Below, in pieces: positions 9,942 through 43,209 of a DNA stretch of 64,000 nucleotides. The notes under the pieces are model-generated. The model saw nothing but the letters and a program-made list of their open reading frames with translations. It searched no databases and was not told where the DNA came from. This DNA is from a virus. The translations under genes were made by a program, and so were the position numbers. Each line of letters begins with the position of its first letter. Within the stretch, counting starts at the first letter, position 1. The stretch is from positions 1 through 64,000 of the IMG/VR virus record IMGVR_UViG_3300012017_001157. The stretch is one strand, 5' to 3'.

Positions 9942-11341
9942 TAGAAGGTGGCCTCCACGGTGACTGAAAGATCTGCACCTGAAGTGCCAGCGCTTACAAT
10001 CTCAATCTGAAGCACGTCGCCAATGGCAAGAGATGTAACAGTGCTAAGGGATGTGGTGACGACAGCGGCCCCCACAGAAGCGCTTGTATTGCCGTTGGTG
10101 GAGCCGTTCTTCACGAGGCGATAGGTCACGCCAGAGCCGCCACCAGCGTAGGCTCGAGCATTGACAAGCGTGCATGCGATGGGGGAGATAAATCTTGGTT
10201 GCTTTACTCCAGTTGCCAAAGTGCCAGCGATGTGGAATGAAATCGGCATAGGGAGGGCATCAAGCTTTGTCTTGTCTGCTGCGCTCAAGTAGCCAGGGAC
10301 AGACTGTGTTGCCGCCACGACACTTAGTGTATTTCCAGATTTTGAGAGTGCGGCTCCCGCAATAATGGACGCTGCGCCGGTGAATTGCTGCCACGACATA
10401 GAATCAGTTCCTACTTTAATAATTCCGTCTACCCCGGTTCCGGTGTTTACTTGGATATATCCTTGGTTGCCATAATTTGTTCCATTTAAAATGTATACCG
10501 CATCACCGGAATGCACGTAGTCAGCGGGAATGCCTCCGTCAAAATTACTTGCTCTTGTGATTCGCCACGGAGTTCCTGCGCTTCCAGCGTTGCTTACAAC
10601 GTAGATTCCATTATGAGCCTGATTAGTCGCTCCGAAATATAGAAGCCGGTCATTTAGCACCATCTGGTACCCGTCAACCGTTCCGATGGCTCCGTTCGTG
10701 TTTGATTCAATGTAGGCCCCAACACCAGTCCCGCCGTCACCTCCTGCCGATCCAGCTGTGTAGGTTCCGTTGCCGATATTAGACGCCTGCGCTGCCTTTA
10801 CGGCTACGTGCCAGTTAACTCCGGAAGCTAATGCGTCCACATACGCTTTCGTAGCAGCATGCATGTCTTGAGTTGGGTCAACCCCAAGGGTGATTTGATT
10901 GACGGCAGTGTTTGCGCTTCCGTCTCTAAGAACAATTGTGTTGTTGTTGGCAGACGCAGTTGCAGTCGTCTGGGCATTAAGAACGGTCAGCGTATTGCTG
11001 TTTCCGTCAATGGTCTTATTGGTCAGGCTTTGCGTATCGCTTGTGCCAACAATGGCCCCAGACACGCCGTGGGTTGCGGTAAGACCAGCATGGGTGCTGA
11101 CCTTGGTCGTTGCATCTGAGGCCGCAGAAGAGATAGCGTCTGACTCTGCCGTATCAGCTTTTGCCTGTGCCCCGTCTGGGCTTTCGGTTGAGAAGGGCAG
11201 GGACGTCCACGCAGTGCTGCCAGTTCCAATCTTGAACTGCTTGTTGGTGCTGTCGTAGCCAATCTCGCCAGCCGCAAGGGTTGGGTTGACCGAGGCCCAG
11301 TTGGCCGCAGTGTCCCTTCTTGGCTTAATGATGTTTGGCAT
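9941..11341 (-). CDS. Tail fibre protein with repeated shaft domain
   Basis: The 466-residue product starts with a fibre-type N terminus (KPRRDTAANWASVNPTLAAGEIGYDSTNKQFKIG). It carries one copy of a shaft domain with NDRLLYFGATNQAHNGIYVV and W-R-I-T-R-A, shared with the next two fibres, and ends in a beta-rich C-terminal domain. It is presumably a distal tail structure. TAATG couples it to both neighbours. Confidence 0.75.
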   Translation of the reverse strand: MPNIIKPRRDTAANWASVNPTLAAGEIGYDSTNKQFKIGTGSTAWTSLPFSTESPDGAQAKADTAESDAISSAASDATTKVSTHAGLTATHGVSGAIVGTSDTQSLTNKTIDGNSNTLTVLNAQTTATASANNNTIVLRDGSANTAVNQITLGVDPTQDMHAATKAYVDALASGVNWHVAVKAAQASNIGNGTYTAGSAGGDGGTGVGAYIESNTNGAIGTVDGYQMVLNDRLLYFGATNQAHNGIYVVSNAGSAGTPWRITRASNFDGGIPADYVHSGDAVYILNGTNYGNQGYIQVNTGTGVDGIIKVGTDSMSWQQFTGAASIIAGAALSKSGNTLSVVAATQSVPGYLSAADKTKLDALPMPISFHIAGTLATGVKQPRFISPIACTLVNARAYAGGGSGVTYRLVKNGSTNGNTSASVGAAVVTTSLSTVTSLAIGDVLQIEIVSAGTSGADLSVTVEATF

Positions 11342-24627: not shown

Positions 24628-24703
24628 GCCGTCGTAGCTCAGTGGATAGAGCAAGGGACTTCTAAGCCTTTGGTCGCAGGTTCGATTCCTGTCGACGGCG
24701 CCA
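24628..24703 (+). tRNA. tRNA-Arg (anticodon UCU)
   Basis: The 76-nt gene folds into a cloverleaf. The acceptor is GCCGTCG/CGACGGC with G73 and encoded CCA. It has a D arm GCTC/GAGC, anticodon loop CTTCTAA (UCU) and T loop TTCGATT. The anticodon stem has one mismatch at its closing pair. It reads AGA and AGG codons. Confidence 0.9.
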
Positions 24704-30994: not shown

Positions 30995-31071
30995 CGGGGA
31001 CGTAGCTCAACGGTTAGAGCACCGAGCTTATATCTCGGCGGTTCCTGGTTCGAGTCCAGGCGTCCCTACCA
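30995..31071 (+). tRNA. tRNA-Ile (anticodon UAU)
   Basis: The 77-nt gene has acceptor GGGGACG/CGTCCCT (G1-U72 wobble), A73 and encoded CCA, anticodon stem CCGAG/CTCGG with loop CTTATAT (UAU), and T loop TTCGAGT. UAU reads AUA directly. Most bacteria instead use a CAU tRNA modified to lysidine. Confidence 0.85.
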
Positions 31072-36471: not shown

Positions 36472-36539
36472 GTTCGGCTCCAAAGGGCCGCGGCCCTTTG
36501 GACTAGAACTTGACGCAATCTCGGGAAGTATGCGACAAT
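36472..36539 (+). promoter_or_regulatory. Cassette element P4
   Basis: GTTC 36472, perfect 22-bp palindrome 36480-36501, TAGAAC 36504-36509 directly joined to TTGACG 36510-36515, 18 bp, GACAAT 36534-36539. Leader hairpin CGGCA-GT-TGCCG, then AAGGAGG. No terminator between it and the upstream gene. Confidence 0.8.
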
Positions 36540-36581
36540 CCACCTAGCGGCAGTTGCCGTTGAGAAAAAAGGAGGACGCAA

Positions 36582-37547
36582 ATGGCACACGAAGTAGAAA
36601 CGATGGCATACAACGCGGAAAGGGGCGCGCCGTGGCACAAACTCGGCGTTGCCAATAATGGACTCACAACGAGCGCGGAGATGATCGTTGCGGCTGGTCT
36701 TGATTGGGCAGTAAAGCAGCAACCGATCTTCACAACGCTTGACGGCAAGCAGATTGCGATCAACGGCAAGCGCGCAAATGTTCGCAGCACCGATGGTTCG
36801 GTCTTGGGCGTTGTCGGTGATCGCTACACGCCAATCCAGAACGACGAGATGATGTCGTTCGCGGACGCGTTGCTTGACGAGGGCGCACGCTACGAGTCGG
36901 CGGGTTCGCTCAAAGGTGGGCAGATCGTCTTCTCCGCGTTGGAGATTCCAGAGAAGATCAAGATCAAGGGCGACAATGGTGATACCAACACCTACCTTGT
37001 GATTGCCAATGGGCACAACGGCTTGTTCCCACTCAAAGCGATGATTACGCCAATCCGCGTTGTTTGTATGAACACGCTCAACGCAGCGTTGGGCAGCGCG
37101 AAGATGTCGTTCACACTTCGCCACACCGCGAAGATTGAGGAGAAAGTCGCAGAGGCGAAGCGCGCACTCGGACTTGCCGCAAGCGCGGTTGAGGAGTTTT
37201 CGGTCATCGGCTCGCGTATGATCGCGGAGAAGATGGATCGCGACGAAGCGTTCCGCGTGATTACGCGCATCTTCCCGCTGTCGGAGTCGGAGAAGCGTGA
37301 GAAGGAAGTAATGTCGGAGCGAGCGAAGGCAACAATCGCGATTCTCAATAACGCGGAGAATCTAGAAGGTTTGCGCGATACGAAGTGGGGCGTATACAAC
37401 GCCATCGCCGAGTATCTGGACTATGGCGTTTCGTATCGCGGCGGGGTACGCTCTTCTGCTTCGGACGCTCGTGCTTCTAGCGTAATGCTAGACACAGGTT
37501 TCGCAGCGAAGACAAAGCGCGAGGCAGTCCTCGCGCTTTCCCGATGA
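36582..37547 (+). CDS. DUF932 / TIGR03299-type phage-plasmid protein
   Basis: The 321-residue protein (MAYNAERGAPWHKLGVANNGLTTSAEMI, VVGDRYTPIQNDEMMSFADALLDEG, ANGHNGLFPLKAMITPIRVVCMNTLNAAL, LRHTAKIEEKVAEAKRALGLA) matches the DUF932 family found on many phages and plasmids, function unknown. Intact length. Confidence 0.85.
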   Translation: MAHEVETMAYNAERGAPWHKLGVANNGLTTSAEMIVAAGLDWAVKQQPIFTTLDGKQIAINGKRANVRSTDGSVLGVVGDRYTPIQNDEMMSFADALLDEGARYESAGSLKGGQIVFSALEIPEKIKIKGDNGDTNTYLVIANGHNGLFPLKAMITPIRVVCMNTLNAALGSAKMSFTLRHTAKIEEKVAEAKRALGLAASAVEEFSVIGSRMIAEKMDRDEAFRVITRIFPLSESEKREKEVMSERAKATIAILNNAENLEGLRDTKWGVYNAIAEYLDYGVSYRGGVRSSASDARASSVMLDTGFAAKTKREAVLALSR

Positions 37548-37621
37548 TTGAGTTGTTTTGGGGCTTTCTTCTTCTGCTCGCTTCGTTTACATACGCAATC
37601 GTTAGCGAAGTAAGAAAGTAG
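37544..37621 (+). CDS. 25-residue single-helix membrane peptide
   Basis: ATGA-coupled to the DUF932 gene, the frame encodes a hydrophobic helix (LFWGFLLLLASFTYAIV) followed by a charged SEVRK end. It is one of several tiny membrane peptides in this genome. Terminator 37634-37660 follows. Confidence 0.5.
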   Translation: MIELFWGFLLLLASFTYAIVSEVRK

Positions 37622-37633
37622 CCCAAGAAAAAC

Positions 37634-37660
37634 AAGCCCCCTTCGGGGGGCTTGTTTTTT
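37634..37660 (+). terminator. Intrinsic terminator
   Basis: AAGCCCCC-TTCG-GGGGGCTT stem-loop and a T run. Confidence 0.8.
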
Positions 37661-37731
37661 GTTCAGCCCCAAATGGCCGCGGCCATTTGGGTTAGAACCC
37701 CTTGACGGCTGACGGCAAATCTGCTTACAAT
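37661..37731 (+). promoter_or_regulatory. Cassette element P5
   Basis: GTTC 37661, perfect 22-bp palindrome 37669-37690, TAGAAC 37693-37698, TTGACG 37702-37707, 18 bp, TACAAT 37726-37731. Leader hairpin CCCC-GCTT-GGGG, then AAGGAGG. Confidence 0.85.
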
Positions 37732-37772
37732 GGTGTTGCCCCGCTTGGGGTTTGTAATAAAGGAGGCTGGAA

Positions 37773-38222
37773 ATGGGATACGACATCTACTCGCTGCTAC
37801 CAGACCGAAAGGCTGCGGCTGAACACGCAAAGAAGCACCGCTCAATGTGGGTAAACGAGGACGGCTCGTATGACGAGAAGGCTCCCGATACGCTCTACTT
37901 CCGTCTGAACATCTGGGGTATGCCGATGTTGCGTGAGTTCCACGATGCGATTGGCTTTGACGAGGTGAACGAGAATCTACTTGATAATAGCGGCGAGGTC
38001 ATCAAGGACTATGAGTGCCGCGCACTCTCCGAGAAAATCGCGTCTATGAGCGATGAGCAAATCAAAAACGAAATGATTGCCATAATCGCAAACAATCCGT
38101 TTATGGACGACCACACGAAGGCGTTCCCAAGCGAGGAGGCGACTTCGTGGGTTGGTCTTATCCGAGAGTGGCAGGCGTTCTTGGAGAAGTGCGCTGACCT
38201 GAAAGGGTGTGAGGTATTGTGA
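37773..38222 (+). CDS. Hypothetical cassette protein
   Basis: The 149-residue alpha/beta protein (GYDIYSLLPDRKAAAEHAKKHRSMW, then FRLNIWGMPMLREFHDAIGF) is found in many phages in this style but has no recognised function. GTGA couples it to the next gene. Confidence 0.65.
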   Translation: MGYDIYSLLPDRKAAAEHAKKHRSMWVNEDGSYDEKAPDTLYFRLNIWGMPMLREFHDAIGFDEVNENLLDNSGEVIKDYECRALSEKIASMSDEQIKNEMIAIIANNPFMDDHTKAFPSEEATSWVGLIREWQAFLEKCADLKGCEVL

Positions 38223-38419
38223 GCCGCCTATTCCCCACATCTAAACGAAAGCCCTGCGACTGCCCGATGGATAGGCGGGAAGAGCATTGGCTTTGGTCTG
38301 ACTGCGACAAGCATTTAGAGGACTGCTATGTGGTGTGGTGTCAAGAGTGCGACATCTACTCGGCAGACTGCGATAACGGAGGATTGACTTGGCGTGAAAT
38401 CCCAAGCGACTGGAAGTAA
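38219..38419 (+). CDS. Cysteine-rich mini-protein
   Basis: From GTG 38219, 66 residues with CDCPMD, CDKHLEDC, CQECD and DCDN, giving a likely zinc ribbon. GTG start overlaps the previous stop. Confidence 0.6.
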   Translation: MSRLFPTSKRKPCDCPMDRREEHWLWSDCDKHLEDCYVVWCQECDIYSADCDNGGLTWREIPSDWK

Positions 38420-38426
38420 ATAAATA

Positions 38427-38497
38427 GTTCGCCCCCAGATGGCGGCGGCCATCTGGGATAGAACCTCTTGACGGATAGAAGCAAGTGGATTTACAAT
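38427..38497 (+). promoter_or_regulatory. Cassette element P6
   Basis: GTTC 38427, arms CCCAGATGGC/GCCATCTGGG (38434-38457), TAGAAC 38459-38464, TTGACG 38468-38473, 18 bp, TACAAT 38492-38497. Leader hairpin CCCC-GCTT-GGGG, then AAGGAGG. Confidence 0.85.
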
Positions 38498-38538
38498 AGG
38501 GCTACCCCGCTTGGGGTGCTGCGAACAAGGAGGCAACA

Positions 38539-38781
38539 ATGGCGTACCTACAAGGCTCAATGACGATGTGTGGCAACGGAGATTGCTACTACGACCAATG
38601 CGAGTGCGAAACGCACGACCACCCGCTCGTTCAGGAGTGCGAGGGCGAGGAAGTGCTGCGACTTGATAAGCGTTGCCCATTTGAGGGCAAGGAGCGAAAG
38701 TTCCCCTATGGCTGGAACGGCGCAGAATACGCCTATGATGAAGTTCGTAATCTCTGCGATGACTGCTATGGTGCGCTTTAA
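38539..38781 (+). CDS. Cysteine-rich cassette protein
   Basis: The 80-residue protein has CGNGDCYYDQCECETH and a late CDDCYGAL, suggesting two zinc sites. It may bind RNA or DNA. TAATG couples it to the next gene. Confidence 0.65.
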   Translation: MAYLQGSMTMCGNGDCYYDQCECETHDHPLVQECEGEEVLRLDKRCPFEGKERKFPYGWNGAEYAYDEVRNLCDDCYGAL

Positions 38782-39032
38782 TGAGCGACCACTTTGAGAT
38801 TCCTGTTGGCGACCAGCAAGAAGCCGACGAGCGGACGCACCCCTGCGGCGATTGCGGTGAGGTCGTTGAGGATTGGTATCTTGCCGACAACAACTCCTCT
38901 GGGACGCTGCGAGTCTACTGCGGAAAGTGCGAGGAACACCGATCAGACAAGTACGGCTGCGCGATGATTCTTTCCGAAGGCGTGATGTGCCAAGACGGAG
39001 CGTGCGGCTGCGGCGGGACTGGCGTGTATTGA
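38781..39032 (+). CDS. Zinc-ribbon cassette protein
   Basis: The 83-residue protein has CGDCGEVVED, YCGKCEEH and a C-terminal CQDGACGCGG, a classic CxxC...CxxC ribbon with extra cysteines. TAATG overlap with the preceding gene. Confidence 0.65.
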   Translation: MSDHFEIPVGDQQEADERTHPCGDCGEVVEDWYLADNNSSGTLRVYCGKCEEHRSDKYGCAMILSEGVMCQDGACGCGGTGVY

Positions 39033-39042
39033 GCAATAAATA

Positions 39043-39111
39043 GTTCGCCCCCAAGCACCCGCGGGTGCTTGGGCTGGAACATTTGACGGACAGCCCGAGG
39101 TATGGGACAAT
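39043..39111 (+). promoter_or_regulatory. Cassette element P7
   Basis: GTTC 39043, perfect 24-bp palindrome 39050-39073, TGGAAC 39075-39080, TTGACG 39083-39088, 17 bp, GACAAT 39106-39111. Leader hairpin GTCGG/CCGAC then AAGGAGG. Confidence 0.8.
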
Positions 39112-39153
39112 CCGATTGTCGGAAGTACCGACGCTGCGAATAAGGAGGAATGT

Positions 39154-39420
39154 ATGTCAACACCGATCGCTTGGCAGTTTGACGCTTCCGTTCATTGCCT
39201 AGCCTGCGCGAAGGCACGCTTCGGCGATACGCTTGACAGCGAAGACACGAAGGATAACGAGGGCAATAATCTTCACCCTGTCTTTGACTGGGACGAAGTA
39301 AACTGGTGCGGTGAATCTTGTGGGACTTGCCTTGAGTGGGCGATTGATCCCGTTGATCACGAGCCGTTCAGTTGCCTGCTAGGATACGACTGCCGCAAGC
39401 CACAAGCCGCGGCACTATGA
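39154..39420 (+). CDS. Zinc-binding cassette protein
   Basis: The 88-residue protein has CLACAKARFGD, CGESCGTCLEW and a late C, a probable metal-binding fold. Terminator 39457-39499 follows. Confidence 0.65.
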   Translation: MSTPIAWQFDASVHCLACAKARFGDTLDSEDTKDNEGNNLHPVFDWDEVNWCGESCGTCLEWAIDPVDHEPFSCLLGYDCRKPQAAAL

Positions 39421-39456
39421 CTACGGCGTAGGATAGAGCCTCCCCTACGCCCCAAC

Positions 39457-39499
39457 AGAGGGATCAAGTTGATCGCAGCCAACTTGATCCCTCTTTTTT
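39457..39499 (+). terminator. Long-stem intrinsic terminator
   Basis: A perfect 15-bp stem (39457-39471 with 39480-39494) followed by TTTTTT. This is the longest perfect terminator in the array. Confidence 0.85.
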
Positions 39500-39570
39500 G
39501 TTCGCCTCAAACGGGCCGCGGCCCGTTTGACTAGAACCTCTTGACGACCTAGTGGTCGCTGTTGTACCCT
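39500..39570 (+). promoter_or_regulatory. Cassette element P8
   Basis: GTTC 39500, perfect 24-bp palindrome 39507-39530, TAGAAC 39532-39537, TTGACG 39541-39546, 18 bp, TACCCT 39565-39570 (weak -10). Leader hairpin GCGGC/GCCGC, then GGAGG. Confidence 0.75.
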
Positions 39571-39612
39571 TGTCTTGCGGCGAAGTAGTGCCGCAGAAAG
39601 AGGAGGCAAGAA

Positions 39613-39837
39613 ATGGGAAAGGGAGATAAGTCCGACTTCGCGGACTTCTCGTTCGTAAGCGAGGGAAGGATTGCCCTCATCACCCCACTCACAGCAGAGG
39701 CTCGCTCGTGGCTGCGCGATAGGGTGGACTCGGAGGCGACCTATTGGGGTCAGGCTCTTGTCGTTGAGCCGCGCTATGCCGAACCGATTCTGGAAGGAAT
39801 CGCGGCAGACGGATTCTCCGTTCTGGGTTGCGTATGA
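39613..39837 (+). CDS. Hypothetical cassette protein
   Basis: The 74-residue protein (FSFVSEGRIALITPLTAEARSWLRDRV..WGQALVVEPRYAEPIL) has a recognisable small alpha/beta domain seen in many phage genes, unknown function. ATGA couples it to the next gene. Confidence 0.65.
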   Translation: MGKGDKSDFADFSFVSEGRIALITPLTAEARSWLRDRVDSEATYWGQALVVEPRYAEPILEGIAADGFSVLGCV

Positions 39838-40175
39838 GCAGGGAAGACGCAGCCTTCTACACCTATCACGAGGACGACGAGGCGATCAAAGACCTCGGCG
39901 ACTATCTGGTGTTCAGGTGTGGCGTGATGAACATTAGGTACAAACGAGATAATGGGCAGTTTGTCCATCTTCGCACGACGAGGGACTTGGAAGATGTCGG
40001 CATAGACTCCGACGAGAAACTCGCAGAGGCGGAGAAAGACATTGAGCGATTTGAGTGGATAAATAACTCGTGGTTTGAGTTGATCCACAAATCCGAACTA
40101 GGCGAAGGATACGAACACCCTGTCTTCTATTCGTTGAGCGACGCAATCGCTTCCGCAGAAGCACCAGCAAACTAA
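39834..40175 (+). CDS. Hypothetical cassette protein
   Basis: From ATG 39834 the protein has 113 residues (REDAAFYTYHEDDEAIKDLG, LEDVGIDSDEKLAEAEKDIE). Acidic, no motif. Start chosen by ATGA overlap. Confidence 0.65.
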   Translation: MSREDAAFYTYHEDDEAIKDLGDYLVFRCGVMNIRYKRDNGQFVHLRTTRDLEDVGIDSDEKLAEAEKDIERFEWINNSWFELIHKSELGEGYEHPVFYSLSDAIASAEAPAN

Positions 40176-40182
40176 ATAAATA

Positions 40183-40262
40183 GTTCGGCTCCAATCACCC
40201 GCCGGTGATTGGAATGGAACTGAAATAGGTGCTTGACAGGTCTGGCGAGGGTGTGGGAGAAT
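40183..40262 (+). promoter_or_regulatory. Cassette element P9, drives a probable ncRNA
   Basis: GTTC 40183, arms CCAATCACC/GGTGATTGG (40191-40212), TGGAAC 40215-40220, a 12-bp longer gap, TTGACA 40233-40238, 18 bp, GAGAAT 40257-40262. No GGAGG follows. Confidence 0.75.
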
Positions 40263-40267
40263 CCCCT

Positions 40268-40496
40268 TGTCGGAAGCGATTCTAGATGAAGCGACACCGA
40301 CTAGGTGAGACTCTGGACGAGCGAGCAGATGCCGCAGCCAAAAAATGCGGGTATAGAGACGCAAAGGACGATGACCGCTAGGTGCCAATGGATCGGCGGA
40401 GCGGAAGGAAAAGGAGTCGGGGGAAGTGATTAGCCCCCGATGAATAATCCGAAACGAGACCCCCAGAGCGACGGCTCTGGGGGTTTCGTGCTTTAT
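40268..40496 (+). ncRNA. Candidate structured RNA 1
   Basis: Between promoter P9 and a strong terminator lies about 225 nt without a GGAGG-led gene. Predicted stems are 40265-40273/40297-40305, CCGCA/TGCGG (40332-40350) and TCGGGGG/CCCCCGA (40417-40440). A terminator stem CCCCAGAGC/GCTCTGGGG lies at 40461-40482. A 31-codon frame (40286-40381) lacks a good ribosome site and may be coincidental. Confidence 0.55.
40453..40496 (+). terminator. Terminator of candidate RNA 1
   Basis: A long stem around CCCCAGAGC/GCTCTGGGG, extended by flanking CGA/TCG pairs, followed by a partly T-rich tail. Confidence 0.65.
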
Positions 40497-40499
40497 TAG

Positions 40500-40570
40500 G
40501 TTCAGCTGGAACAGGCGGCGGCCTGTTCCAATAGAACCTCTTGACACCTTGCAAGAAGTTTGATTACAAT
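40500..40570 (+). promoter_or_regulatory. Cassette element P10
   Basis: GTTC 40500, arms TGGAACAGGC/GCCTGTTCCA (40507-40530), TAGAAC 40532-40537, TTGACA 40541-40546, 18 bp, TACAAT 40565-40570. Leader hairpin CCCC-ACTT-GGGG, then GGAGG. Confidence 0.85.
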
Positions 40571-40609
40571 GGGTTCACCCCACTTGGGGCGGTAGCAGAG
40601 GAGGCTAAA

Positions 40610-40948
40610 ATGTTCAAGGCTCTGGCAGTTTCACTCAAGGCAAGCGACTTCACGAAGTTCCAGTGCTCGCAGGGCACTTGCGAGGGCGATTGGCTCGTTG
40701 AGCCAAATGTCGCTTCTCGTCTTGACGGATACGATCTGAAGTTCGCTGAAATCTACGGCGATATGTTGGATGGGTTCGCTCAGCCAGACGAGATGATCTC
40801 AACTGAACTTGATGGGACTTACGACAGGTTCGGCAACATCGTCGTCCACTGGCGCAACGATGGATTCATTGACTTCGTTGCCTTCTCAGAGGCGTGGGCA
40901 GCCGAGCGCGAGATGGCTGACATCATCGCGCTCCACCAAGCCGAGTAG
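40610..40948 (+). CDS. Hypothetical cassette protein
   Basis: From ATG 40610, 112 residues (FKALAVSLKASDFTKFQCS, GTCEGDWLVEP, SEAWAAEREMADIIALH). Not assigned. Terminator 40964-40986 follows. Confidence 0.65.
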   Translation: MFKALAVSLKASDFTKFQCSQGTCEGDWLVEPNVASRLDGYDLKFAEIYGDMLDGFAQPDEMISTELDGTYDRFGNIVVHWRNDGFIDFVAFSEAWAAEREMADIIALHQAE

Positions 40949-40963
40949 TCCAGAAAGCAAAGA

Positions 40964-40986
40964 TGCCGCCTTCGGGCGGCATTTTT
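40964..40986 (+). terminator. Intrinsic terminator
   Basis: TGCCGCC-TTCG-GGCGGCA stem and TTTTTG. Confidence 0.8.
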
Positions 40987-41056
40987 GTTCGGCTCCAAGT
41001 GGCCGCCGCCACTTGGAATAGAACCCTTGACGGCTGGCTAGGTGTTCGCTTAGAAT
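40987..41056 (+). promoter_or_regulatory. Cassette element P11
   Basis: GTTC 40987, arms TCCAAGTGGC/GCCACTTGGA (40994-41017), TAGAAC 41019-41024, TTGACG 41027-41032, 18 bp, TAGAAT 41051-41056. Leader hairpin CCCC-GATT-GGGG, then AAGGAGG. Confidence 0.85.
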
Positions 41057-41096
41057 CGGAGTACCCCGATTGGGGCAGAGTAGCAAGGAGGCAGAA

Positions 41097-41378
41097 ATGA
41101 GCAAGGCAATCAAGTTGGCAGAGGCAGCCGAAATGATTCGCAGCAGCAACGGCGCAATCTTCGGCGTGGACTTCGTGAAGCGCACGACGGGCGAGGTTCG
41201 CAAGATGACGGCGCGGCTCGGAGTCAAGAAGCACCTCAAAGGTGGCGAGGCTGCGTATGACGCGGCGGCGAAAGACCTCATCTTCGTCTACGACATCACC
41301 AAGAAGGCGTATCGTTCGGTTGCGCTTGACGCAATCACGGCGGTTCGCTTTGGCGGCGAGGTCTACGAAGTCAAGTAA
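41097..41378 (+). CDS. Hypothetical basic cassette protein
   Basis: From ATG 41097, 93 residues. IRSSNGAIFGVDFVKRTTGEVRKMTARLGVKKHL and YDITKKAYRSVALDAI suggest a small SH3-like beta barrel of a kind common in phages. Basic, possibly nucleic-acid binding. Terminator 41403-41427 follows. Confidence 0.65.
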   Translation: MSKAIKLAEAAEMIRSSNGAIFGVDFVKRTTGEVRKMTARLGVKKHLKGGEAAYDAAAKDLIFVYDITKKAYRSVALDAITAVRFGGEVYEVK

Positions 41379-41402
41379 TCCGACGGAGGTCTGGGCAAGA
41401 AG

Positions 41403-41427
41403 GGCGAGGGCAACCTCGCCTTTTTTG
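41403..41427 (+). terminator. Intrinsic terminator
   Basis: GGCGAGG-GCAA-CCTCGCC stem followed by TTTTTT. Confidence 0.85.
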
Positions 41428-41496
41428 TTCACCTCACACGGGCCGCGGCCCGTGTGATTAGAACTCTTGACGACAGAATAGAAGTCTGCTTATAAT
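41427..41496 (+). promoter_or_regulatory. Cassette element P12, drives a probable ncRNA
   Basis: GTTC 41427, perfect 24-bp palindrome 41434-41457, TAGAAC 41459-41464, TTGACG 41467-41472, 18 bp, consensus TATAAT 41491-41496. This is the strongest -10 box of the array. Confidence 0.85.
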
Positions 41497-41502
41497 CAAG
41501 TA

Positions 41503-41715
41503 TCGGGTCGTGAGGAGACGACTAGTTGGTGGTAAGAATAACCACCCGAGACGATAAGACTGGCGGGCTTTGGCATTGACCAGCAGGGGTGCCGCCAGTA
41601 GTGGACTAGCGAAAGCGAAAGTCCACCTTCGCAAGAGGATAAGCGTCAATGCCGCGAAAGGGTTGGGGGGGTCGCAACTTGGGGGTGGTTCCCCTAGGCG
41701 ACTCCCCTTCATTTT
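41503..41715 (+). ncRNA. Candidate structured RNA 2 with pseudoknot
   Basis: About 213 nt from promoter P12 to a terminator, with no ribosome site and no natural-looking frame. Base pairing visible by eye: a junction closed by TATCG 41501-41505/CGATA 41552-41556 holding stems 41507-41511/41518-41522 and GGTGGT/ACCACC (41528-41546). Stem CTGGCGG/CCGCCAG pairs 41560-41566 with 41592-41598. Its loop segment GGCATTGAC (41572-41580) pairs with GTCAATGCC (41645-41653), which makes a pseudoknot. TGGACT/AGTCCA pairs 41602-41607 with 41620-41625 around a GC-GAAA-GC tetraloop. No known RNA class was recognised. Confidence 0.7.
41662..41715 (+). terminator. Terminator of candidate RNA 2
   Basis: Stem GGGG-GTCGC / GCGAC-T-CCCC (41667-41675 with 41698-41707), inner GGGG/CCCC, then TTCATTTTG. 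Confidence 0.7.
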
Positions 41716-41785
41716 GTTCTGCTCCAAGTTGCCGCGGCAACTTGGATTTGAACCCTTGACAGGTCTGGAACTTATCGCGTAAGAT
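41716..41785 (+). promoter_or_regulatory. Cassette element P13
   Basis: GTTC 41716, perfect 24-bp palindrome 41723-41746, TTGAAC 41748-41753, TTGACA 41756-41761, 18 bp, TAAGAT 41780-41785. Leader hairpin TCGGG-GCTT-CCCGA, then AAGGAGG. Confidence 0.8.
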
Positions 41786-41828
41786 TCTGGTGTCGGGGCT
41801 TCCCGATGAGTAGCAAGGAGGCAAGAAA

Positions 41829-42236
41829 ATGGGCAAGGCAATCAAGTTCGGAGTCGGGGCGTTTGAGGCTGGTGCGCCAACTCCCGCGCTGTTCAACTGG
41901 GTTGAGGTCGTGGACTTCAACGATGACGGCAACACGCTCACCGAACTCTACCGCGTGGGCGAGTGGGACATGACGGAGGTTGCGGTTTCTGGTAAGTATG
42001 GCGCAACGAGCGTCGTGCTCTGGTGCGATGAGGAGGGTCTCTACAACGAGCCAGTCCTCCGCAATCATGCGGCGACATCACTCCGCAACGAAATCCTGCG
42101 CGGATACGCTGACCCGATCTACGGCAACTGCGTACTCACCGCAGAGGACGAGGACGGCAAGACGCTCGCGCTCACCGATGAACAGGCTGCGGAAATCAAG
42201 ACGCTGCTAGAACTGGGCAACTACCCAATCAAGTAG
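41829..42236 (+). CDS. DUF3846-like protein
   Basis: The 135-residue protein has SVVLWCDEEGLYNEPVLRNHAA and ADPIYGNCVLTAEDEDGKTLALT, resembling DUF3846 proteins (NEEG..N..A..DxIxGxxvv) frequent in phages and plasmids, function unknown. Terminator 42258-42290 follows. Confidence 0.6.
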   Translation: MGKAIKFGVGAFEAGAPTPALFNWVEVVDFNDDGNTLTELYRVGEWDMTEVAVSGKYGATSVVLWCDEEGLYNEPVLRNHAATSLRNEILRGYADPIYGNCVLTAEDEDGKTLALTDEQAAEIKTLLELGNYPIK

Positions 42237-42257
42237 CGCGCACAAAATCGGGAACGA

Positions 42258-42290
42258 CAACGGCGGGGAGAAATCCCCGCCGTTGTTTCT
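42258..42290 (+). terminator. Intrinsic terminator
   Basis: CAACGGCGGGGA/TCCCCGCCGTTG stem with a short loop, then TTTCTTT. Confidence 0.85.
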
Positions 42291-42299
42291 TTGTGGAGC

Positions 42300-42362
42300 T
42301 CCAACCTGCCGCGGCAGGTTGGAATAGAACACTTGACGAGCGGCTAGGAGTTCGCTTAGTAT
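42300..42362 (+). promoter_or_regulatory. Cassette element P14
   Basis: Left box GAGC in place of GTTC, perfect 24-bp palindrome 42300-42323, TAGAAC 42325-42330, TTGACG 42333-42338, 18 bp, TAGTAT 42357-42362. Leader hairpin CGGG-GACTT-CCCG, then AAGGAGG. Confidence 0.8.
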
Positions 42363-42403
42363 TCAGGGGCGGGGACTTCCCGCTAGGTAGCAAGGAGGCA
42401 AAA

Positions 42404-42733
42404 ATGAGCGAAGGCTACAATGGCTGGACGAACTGGGAAACTTGGGTCACCAATCTTTGGATTGAGGAGGGGCTGCTTGACCTCTTTGAGGTTGGCGAGC
42501 AGGCGCGCCACTTTGCAGAAACCAACGATAGCGACGGAAACTTCGCAGCCTATGAAATGGGGAGGTGGATTCGCGAGCAGGTTGAGGAGTTCATCGGCGA
42601 GCAGCCCGCGGGACTCGTTGCGGACTTCGTGGGCGGTTGTCTCTCGTCGGTGAACTGGACGGAAATCGCGAGCCATCACACGGACGAAGCGATTCGCAAC
42701 GAGCAGGAGCAGACGGCGAACGCGGAAGCGTAA
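42404..42733 (+). CDS. Phage protein of NGWTNWETW type
   Basis: From ATG 42404, 109 residues. The N terminus YNGWTNWETWVTNLWIEE belongs to a group of small phage proteins (YNGxxNxxTWxxxLW) with no known function. The C-terminal part (DFVGGCLSSVNWTEIASHH) matches members of the same group. Confidence 0.7.
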   Translation: MSEGYNGWTNWETWVTNLWIEEGLLDLFEVGEQARHFAETNDSDGNFAAYEMGRWIREQVEEFIGEQPAGLVADFVGGCLSSVNWTEIASHHTDEAIRNEQEQTANAEA

Positions 42734-42760
42734 ACGAAAGCGGCAGGATTTTAGGTCGGC

Positions 42761-42823
42761 TCCACCCTGCCGCGGCAGGGTGGAATAGAACGCTTGACAA
42801 CCAAGCGGGAGTTCGCGTAGTAT
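42761..42823 (+). promoter_or_regulatory. Cassette element P15
   Basis: Perfect 24-bp palindrome 42761-42784 (left box GTCG), TAGAAC 42786-42791, TTGACA 42794-42799, 18 bp, TAGTAT 42818-42823. Leader hairpin GCGGCA-CC-TGCCG, then AAGGAGG. Confidence 0.8.
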
Positions 42824-42865
42824 TGCCTTGCGGCACCTGCCGTAGAGGTAGCATAAGGAGGCAAG

Positions 42866-43150
42866 ATGTTTGGAGGGGACTTCGGTATCCAGGCAACCTA
42901 TGTGACGCGGTTCGTATCCACACCAGGGCACGGATACCTCGTAGCGGAGAAGGCAATGCTTCGCACGCTTGGTATCGCGGACAAGGTGAGCAACTGCTCG
43001 TATGAGCGCAATGGTAGCGTCTACCTAGAAGAAGATTGCGATGCGCCTCTCTTCATCGCGGCGATGGAGAAGAAGGGATTCTCGGTTTCATACAACTCGG
43101 TCAATGTTGATGATGAGTTCATTGACAAGATGGACTACTATCGCGGATAG
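42866..43150 (+). CDS. Hypothetical cassette protein
   Basis: The 94-residue protein (IQATYVTRFVSTPGHGYLVAEKAML, LFIAAMEKKGFSVSYNSVNVD) is not recognised. Terminator 43171-43209 follows. Confidence 0.65.
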   Translation: MFGGDFGIQATYVTRFVSTPGHGYLVAEKAMLRTLGIADKVSNCSYERNGSVYLEEDCDAPLFIAAMEKKGFSVSYNSVNVDDEFIDKMDYYRG

Positions 43151-43170
43151 CGCGCACAATCGTTAGCAAC

Positions 43171-43209
43171 ACACCAGCGGGATGCTACCCCCGCTGGTGT
43201 TTTCTTTTG
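43171..43209 (+). terminator. Intrinsic terminator
   Basis: ACACCAGCGG/CCGCTGGTGT stem (43171-43200) followed by TTTTCTTTTG. Confidence 0.8.

Follow-up and report, generated by a model that had tools for sequence, protein, structure and literature searches.

A new phage RNA family with a multi-hairpin fold supported by compensatory changes and a predicted contact between two hairpin loops

What is made from a phage cassette that has a promoter and a terminator-like end, yet holds no gene? The stretch of DNA analysed here (the window) covers 64 kb out of a 73-kb IMG/VR virus record, and between 36.4 and 43.3 kb it carries a succession of small gene cassettes in which every unit has a promoter of the TTGACN-18-TATAAT type; this region holds 17 promoter-like sites, compared with 3.9 expected in shuffles. 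One cassette is without a gene and sits between a 93-aa protein (phrog_2267, for which Pfam WYL_2 gives a weak match that misses the family's cut-off, E 0.005) and a DUF3846 protein. It had been predicted to encode a novel structured RNA, here RNA 2, behind a TATAAT −10 box and ahead of a strong terminator, and both signals are present: a sigma-70-like promoter, TTGACG-18-TATAAT, lies at 41467–41496 (plus strand, as are all parts of RNA 2 below; 11/12 matches to promoter), and a long hairpin with a U-rich tail occupies 41666–41719. A simple terminator scan did not return this hairpin, presumably owing to the internal loop that it contains. The tail (UUCAUUUUGUUC, 41708–41719) is absent from the tails of other lineages and is, by its letters, a probable intrinsic terminator in the window lineage only. 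The cassette boundaries (window 36482–43200) are perfect zero-loop palindromes, for example at 41437–41458, 41724–41745, 42304–42325 and 42764–42785, in which the centre is fixed (GCCGCGGC or GGCGGC) and the arms vary from cassette to cassette; each is followed by (T)AGAAC and then by the TTGACN promoter. This pattern is also seen in 15 IMG/VR stretches, and the palindromes may be structured boundaries or sites of recombination.

To find homologues, we collected relatives of the DUF932 protein encoded nearby, and nhmmer then detected RNA 2 in six distinct contigs. A motif common to these six, GACGATAAG...GATAAGCGTC, was scanned across IMG/VR. In total 37 IMG/VR contigs carry RNA 2 (36 and the window's own), two of them, L145 and L350, in truncated form. 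A covariance model built from the homologues (R1) gave full-length members 95–179 bits and chance pattern matches at most 12.5 bits; in the window it matched the core of RNA 2 (41502–41669) at 164 bits. RNA 2 was single copy in 19/19 whole records searched, and the sole match among 35 further records, picked for DUF932 or the cassette boundary, had already been counted (G007). Relaxed scans of viral sequence added no member when the GACG/CGUC letters were relaxed and one, the truncated L350, when the 3' half was, and blastn against GenBank phages and plasmids gave no true match. In GTDB genomes 38 exact-pattern matches were inspected as possible bacterial homologues and rejected, the rest of RNA 2 being absent from them. 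A literature search, with subscription papers outside its scope, did not find the family.

We looked for protein-coding conservation across the homologues and found no frame that is open in all members on either strand. The distance between two anchors of RNA 2 ranges from 86 to 103 nt and varies by non-multiples of 3. Since no frame is kept across members, we regard a 127-aa minus-strand frame in the window as incidental. A candidate small protein, with an SD-like AGAGG in the H1 loop before a TTG, was likewise set aside: in L061 it stops at codon 4 (TTGGCAGATTGA), and its frame is not kept.

RNA 2 was also predicted to match no known RNA class, and an Infernal-type check against Rfam 15, run on the window and on homologue loci, agrees with this. 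Among 4,227 families, including tmRNA, 6S, RNase P, group I intron, GOLLD, ROOL, raiA and phi29 pRNA, none reached its gathering cut-off for RNA 2. The scan of the whole window found two tRNAs only, the RNA 2 region with E up to 10 gave two chance matches (10.6 and 9.3 bits; cut-offs 40 and 42), 12 homologue loci yielded one unrelated tRNA, and the L160 region gave nothing credible. ARAGORN reported only tRNA-Arg at 24628 and tRNA-Ile at 30996 in the window, and RNA 2 is neither tmRNA nor tRNA-like. We conclude that RNA 2 is a genuine new phage RNA family outside Rfam, of a general kind (structured phage RNA without known function) that is already known.

Folding energy gave a first measure of structure. 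For the plus strand the predicted energy is −93 kcal/mol (z −3.8, 0/200 shuffles as stable), although the reverse strand of the region scores z −3.6 as well; the energy alone therefore proves little, and homologues were required. In a structural alignment of 23 distinct sequences (the window and 22 further), standard pairs fill 93.5% of pair cells, compared with 73.2 ± 0.9% after shuffling, and drop to 30–45% when partners are slid. Two-sided changes occur in 28/37 pairs, and the covariation score is 0.584 versus 0.212. Because a model-made alignment is biased toward structure, 300 alignments simulated on the estimated tree were used as a phylogenetic null, and all 16,110 column pairs were ranked by an APC-corrected G statistic. 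The top 13 are all predicted stem pairs, drawn from hairpins H1, H2, H4, H5, H6 and H7; three of them have E ≤0.017 and 11 have E <1. For RNA 2 as a whole, then, the paired segments change with compensation among homologues, as in a structured non-coding RNA, and model R1 confirms the fold: read from these compensatory changes, RNA 2 is a multi-hairpin folded RNA.

The two inner hairpins of the original prediction are found at the 5' end. H1 (41507–41522) has the stem GUCG/CGAC and the loop UGAGGAGA, with 100% of cells paired and two-sided change in 4/5 model pairs; in one subgroup (L065, L059, L062 and L149) it is swapped for a longer branched hairpin with ~45 extra nt. A linker seen as conserved in the alignments, UAGUU (41523–41527; UGGUU in the L065 group), leads to H2 (41528–41546, stem GGUGGU/ACCACC), again with 100% of cells paired and two-sided change in 4/5 pairs. 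The predicted "closed junction" can be drawn differently. The 3' side of its outer helix, UAUCG/CGAUA, never varies, and this helix competes with a pairing between GACG and CGUC. GACG-AUAAG (41550–41558) is invariant in all members, and the alignments show an invariant AUAAG-CGUC-A (41639–41648) on the 3' side of the junction. It is plausible that GACG pairs with CGUC at 41644–41647 and closes a four-way junction, although the letters are invariant, so that covariation is silent on this pair. If they do pair, AUAAG at 41554–41558 and AUAAG at 41639–41643 oppose each other as a symmetric 5×5 internal loop.

Three hairpins lie between these invariant segments. H3 (41559–41599) consists of the stem ACUGGCGG/CCGCCAGU, an inner UUGG/CCAG and an apical loop with ACCA (41579–41582); all 8/8 pairs show two-sided change and 80% of cells are paired, one bulged subgroup being imperfectly aligned. 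H4 (41601–41626), with the stem GUGGACU/AGUCCAC, an inner 2-bp stem and a GAAA tetraloop, contributes two helices to the covariance analysis and is the hairpin that had been predicted to hold an inner GNRA tetraloop. H5 (41627–41638, CUUC-GCAA-GAGG) is stacked directly on H4, is 100% paired and includes the second-best covarying pair overall. In two otherwise near-identical RNAs (L138:1277–1447 and L148:1005–1189) the H5 tip is replaced in one by a hairpin 15 nt longer, which suggests, from this comparison of sequences, that H5 tips are swapped or tolerant of insertions. Further 3', H6 (41651–41663) is a short stem, GCC/GGU, with the loop GCGAAAG, and its pair 210–219 ranks 5 of 16,110. H7 (41666–41707) is the long terminator-like hairpin, in which four inner pairs covary and the apical loop is GUGGU (41685–41689). 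H5 and H6 had escaped the original description, as had a contact between 41579–41582 and 41686–41689.

This contact takes the place of the pseudoknot first proposed, a 9-bp pairing of GGCATTGAC (41572–41580) with GTCAATGCC (41645–41653). In the window itself the two segments are complementary, but among the aligned sequences the nine positions form standard pairs in 15, 12, 11, 2 (of 22), 6, 22, 3, 23 and 22 of 23. The pseudoknot thus fails at three positions (2/22, 6/23 and 3/23), and its segments change without compensation; L152 keeps an identical GTCAATGCC, but its loop, GGGTCTAACC, is not complementary. A search of viral contigs for the exact pseudoknot pattern returned 41 stretches, none of them related judging by their flanks. 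Long perfect complementarity in one genome can be coincidence, and a handful of relatives decides.

In its stead, ACCA in the H3 loop (41579–41582) faces UGGU in the H7 loop (41686–41689), with standard pairs in 89/92 cells. Two adjacent positions show two-sided C-G to U-A changes, in different lineages: the pairing becomes ACUA/UAGU in L143, L151 and L155, and AUC/GAU in L140 and L166. The register was spotted by eye before testing, and manual alignment was used for the 7-nt and 5-nt H7 loops; ranking over all windows was meant to offset the former, and the contact came out as the best among 942 loop–loop windows, with 0/300 simulated alignments as good. When the UAGUU linker was tried opposite the H3 loop instead, the pairing was poorer than with the loop of H7. 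The H3–H7 contact is therefore supported by covariation, which does not separate pairing within one molecule from pairing between two.

The phages that carry RNA 2 fall into two groups, with terminases of phrog_38 in group A and phrog_2 in group B. Three records (G005, G009 and G013) have 12–19 proteins in common with the window, whereas three others (G014–G016) share 0–2 with it and 11–20 among themselves, and differ from it in terminase (phrog_2), head protein and connector. The window kind of terminase occurs in 8/19 records only, some of which may be fragments. Compared with GenBank, the similar terminases among the matches listed are all below 28% identity. Judged by gene content, RNA 2 is an accessory element in two groups of phages whose terminase, head and portal genes are unrelated. 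Since these otherwise unrelated groups of environmental phages have both kept it, and its shape is shown by matching mutations, they very probably use it.

RNA 2 lies downstream of RNA 1, a second conserved non-coding cassette (window 40263–40500, terminator loop GCGACGGC) that has no match in Rfam at a permissive threshold and no sequence relation to RNA 2 that we found. The RNA 1 profile finds all window-related members (the window, L059–L062, L065, L138–L139, L141, L144, L146, L148–L149, L152 and others); RNA 1 is limited to this group, with no match in G005, G009 or G013–G016. It ends ~10–110 nt upstream of RNA 2 in L138, L139, L144, L148, L149, L152, L160 and L168 (copies at L160:5863–6123, L168:2221–2480 and L138:939–1200, for example), and the two RNAs may be made together in some phages.

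The genes flanking RNA 2 differ by lineage on both sides, and so do its expression signals. The window group has RNA 2 between a promoter of its own and a U-rich tail, and a separate promoter precedes the downstream gene; the lineages L065, L059, L062 and L149 share this promoter arrangement. Before RNA 2 in the L138 group lies a promoter-like TTGACT site, and in several lineages neither promoter nor terminator is evident. A general linkage to the Sm-like WYL_2 gene was considered and rejected, because proximity of this gene to RNA 2 is confined to close relatives of the window, and in L147 the distance is 2.6 kb. In L063 a run of short repeats (GTTACGAGTTACGAG...) lies downstream of RNA 2 (10219–10320).

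We favour, at somewhat better than even confidence, the reading that the cassette encodes a stable trans-acting non-coding RNA of ~205–215 nt, present in one copy per phage, compact and binding through its junction. GACG/CGUC would close a four-way junction around H3, H4 and H5 and leave the invariant AUAAG/AUAAG and UAGUU segments accessible; the H3–H7 kiss would clamp the 3' hairpin onto the body to give a compact, nuclease-resistant particle. During infection a protein (or RNA) of the host or the phage could then dock on the invariant junction, and RNA 2 could serve as decoy, guide or regulator. In the window lineage transcription would run from its own promoter and end at H7, whereas in other lineages RNA 2 would need excision from a polycistronic transcript. 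The high-copy sponge, decoy or anti-defence role first suggested is speculation.

Six lineages (L061, L063, L143, L147, L151 and L155) have RNA 2 4–9 nt past a stop codon with no evident promoter, L140, L143, L147, L151, L155 and L166 have no U-run 3' of H7, and in group B the next gene follows without a terminator. In such lineages RNA 2 would be processed or would act in cis. Possible, if unlikely, is therefore that RNA 2 works in cis on phage mRNAs, as a structured block in a 3'-UTR or between cistrons that serves in end protection, as a processing site or in terminator read-through. The variable flanking genes argue against this, as does the window group, where RNA 2 is a separate unit between promoter and tail, and the conservation of the junction exceeds the need of simple end protection. 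Placement directly 3' of stop codons would also suit a ribozyme of a new class, with the junction as a catalytic core that cleaves the transcript and so explains its release from polycistronic mRNA; the invariant unpaired GACGAUAAG / GAUAAGCGUCA and UAGUU stand beside freely covarying stems, as such a core might. We think this improbable, given that Rfam ribozyme families do not match, that no conserved cleavage-site context was found beyond a 5' UCCG, and that the window group has its own promoter.

The pairing of the H7 loop with H3, and the tail that follows H7 in the window group, could instead point to a riboswitch or attenuator, with the kiss and termination at H7 in competition. This, too, is improbable: RNA 2 does not consistently precede genes of one functional class (it stands before DUF3846 in the window and before other genes elsewhere), the following cassette carries a separate promoter, and several lineages are without the U-run. 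Phi29 packaging RNA is a small phage RNA with loop–loop pairing, and a similar ring built by inter-molecular kissing loops would fit the phage origin and the loop pair of RNA 2, but is hardly credible for an RNA that sits among small accessory genes, has no Rfam match and is not tied to one packaging motor, the terminases and portals of its two carrier groups being unrelated. A trans-acting RNA fits better than a riboswitch or packaging RNA with two unrelated groups, different neighbour genes, and either its own promoter and terminator or a place after a stop codon.

A trans-acting RNA 2 would still differ from described phage RNAs. Phage small RNAs in general resemble the window group's free-standing promoter–RNA–terminator unit, but RNA 2 is highly structured, has an invariant multi-helix junction with no exposed antisense seed recognised, and in some lineages is without promoter or terminator. 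GOLLD and ROOL, ornate phage and prophage RNAs that form RNA-only homo-oligomers via kissing loops, are likewise structured non-coding RNAs without known function, largely from environmental sequence and with conserved kissing loops; they are, however, far longer (GOLLD members often >800 nt) and often lie near tRNA islands (PMC12286853). RNA 2, by contrast, is ~210 nt long and has no adjoining tRNA genes.

The invariance of the junction while the stems change freely is typical of RNAs that work through their junction. Distinctly unlikely as we hold it to be, RNA 2 may represent a new class of phage RNA machine, its junction a catalytic or protein-binding core directed against the host, kept by unrelated phages and often paired with RNA 1; if true, it would be, for instance, a ribozyme of a new kind or an RNA that traps a defence or expression factor of the host. 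To our knowledge only a few structured RNAs encoded by phages have been described, most of them without an assigned function. RNA 2 is small, with a covariation-supported fold, a defined tertiary contact and exact positions to mutate, and its role in these phages is directly testable.
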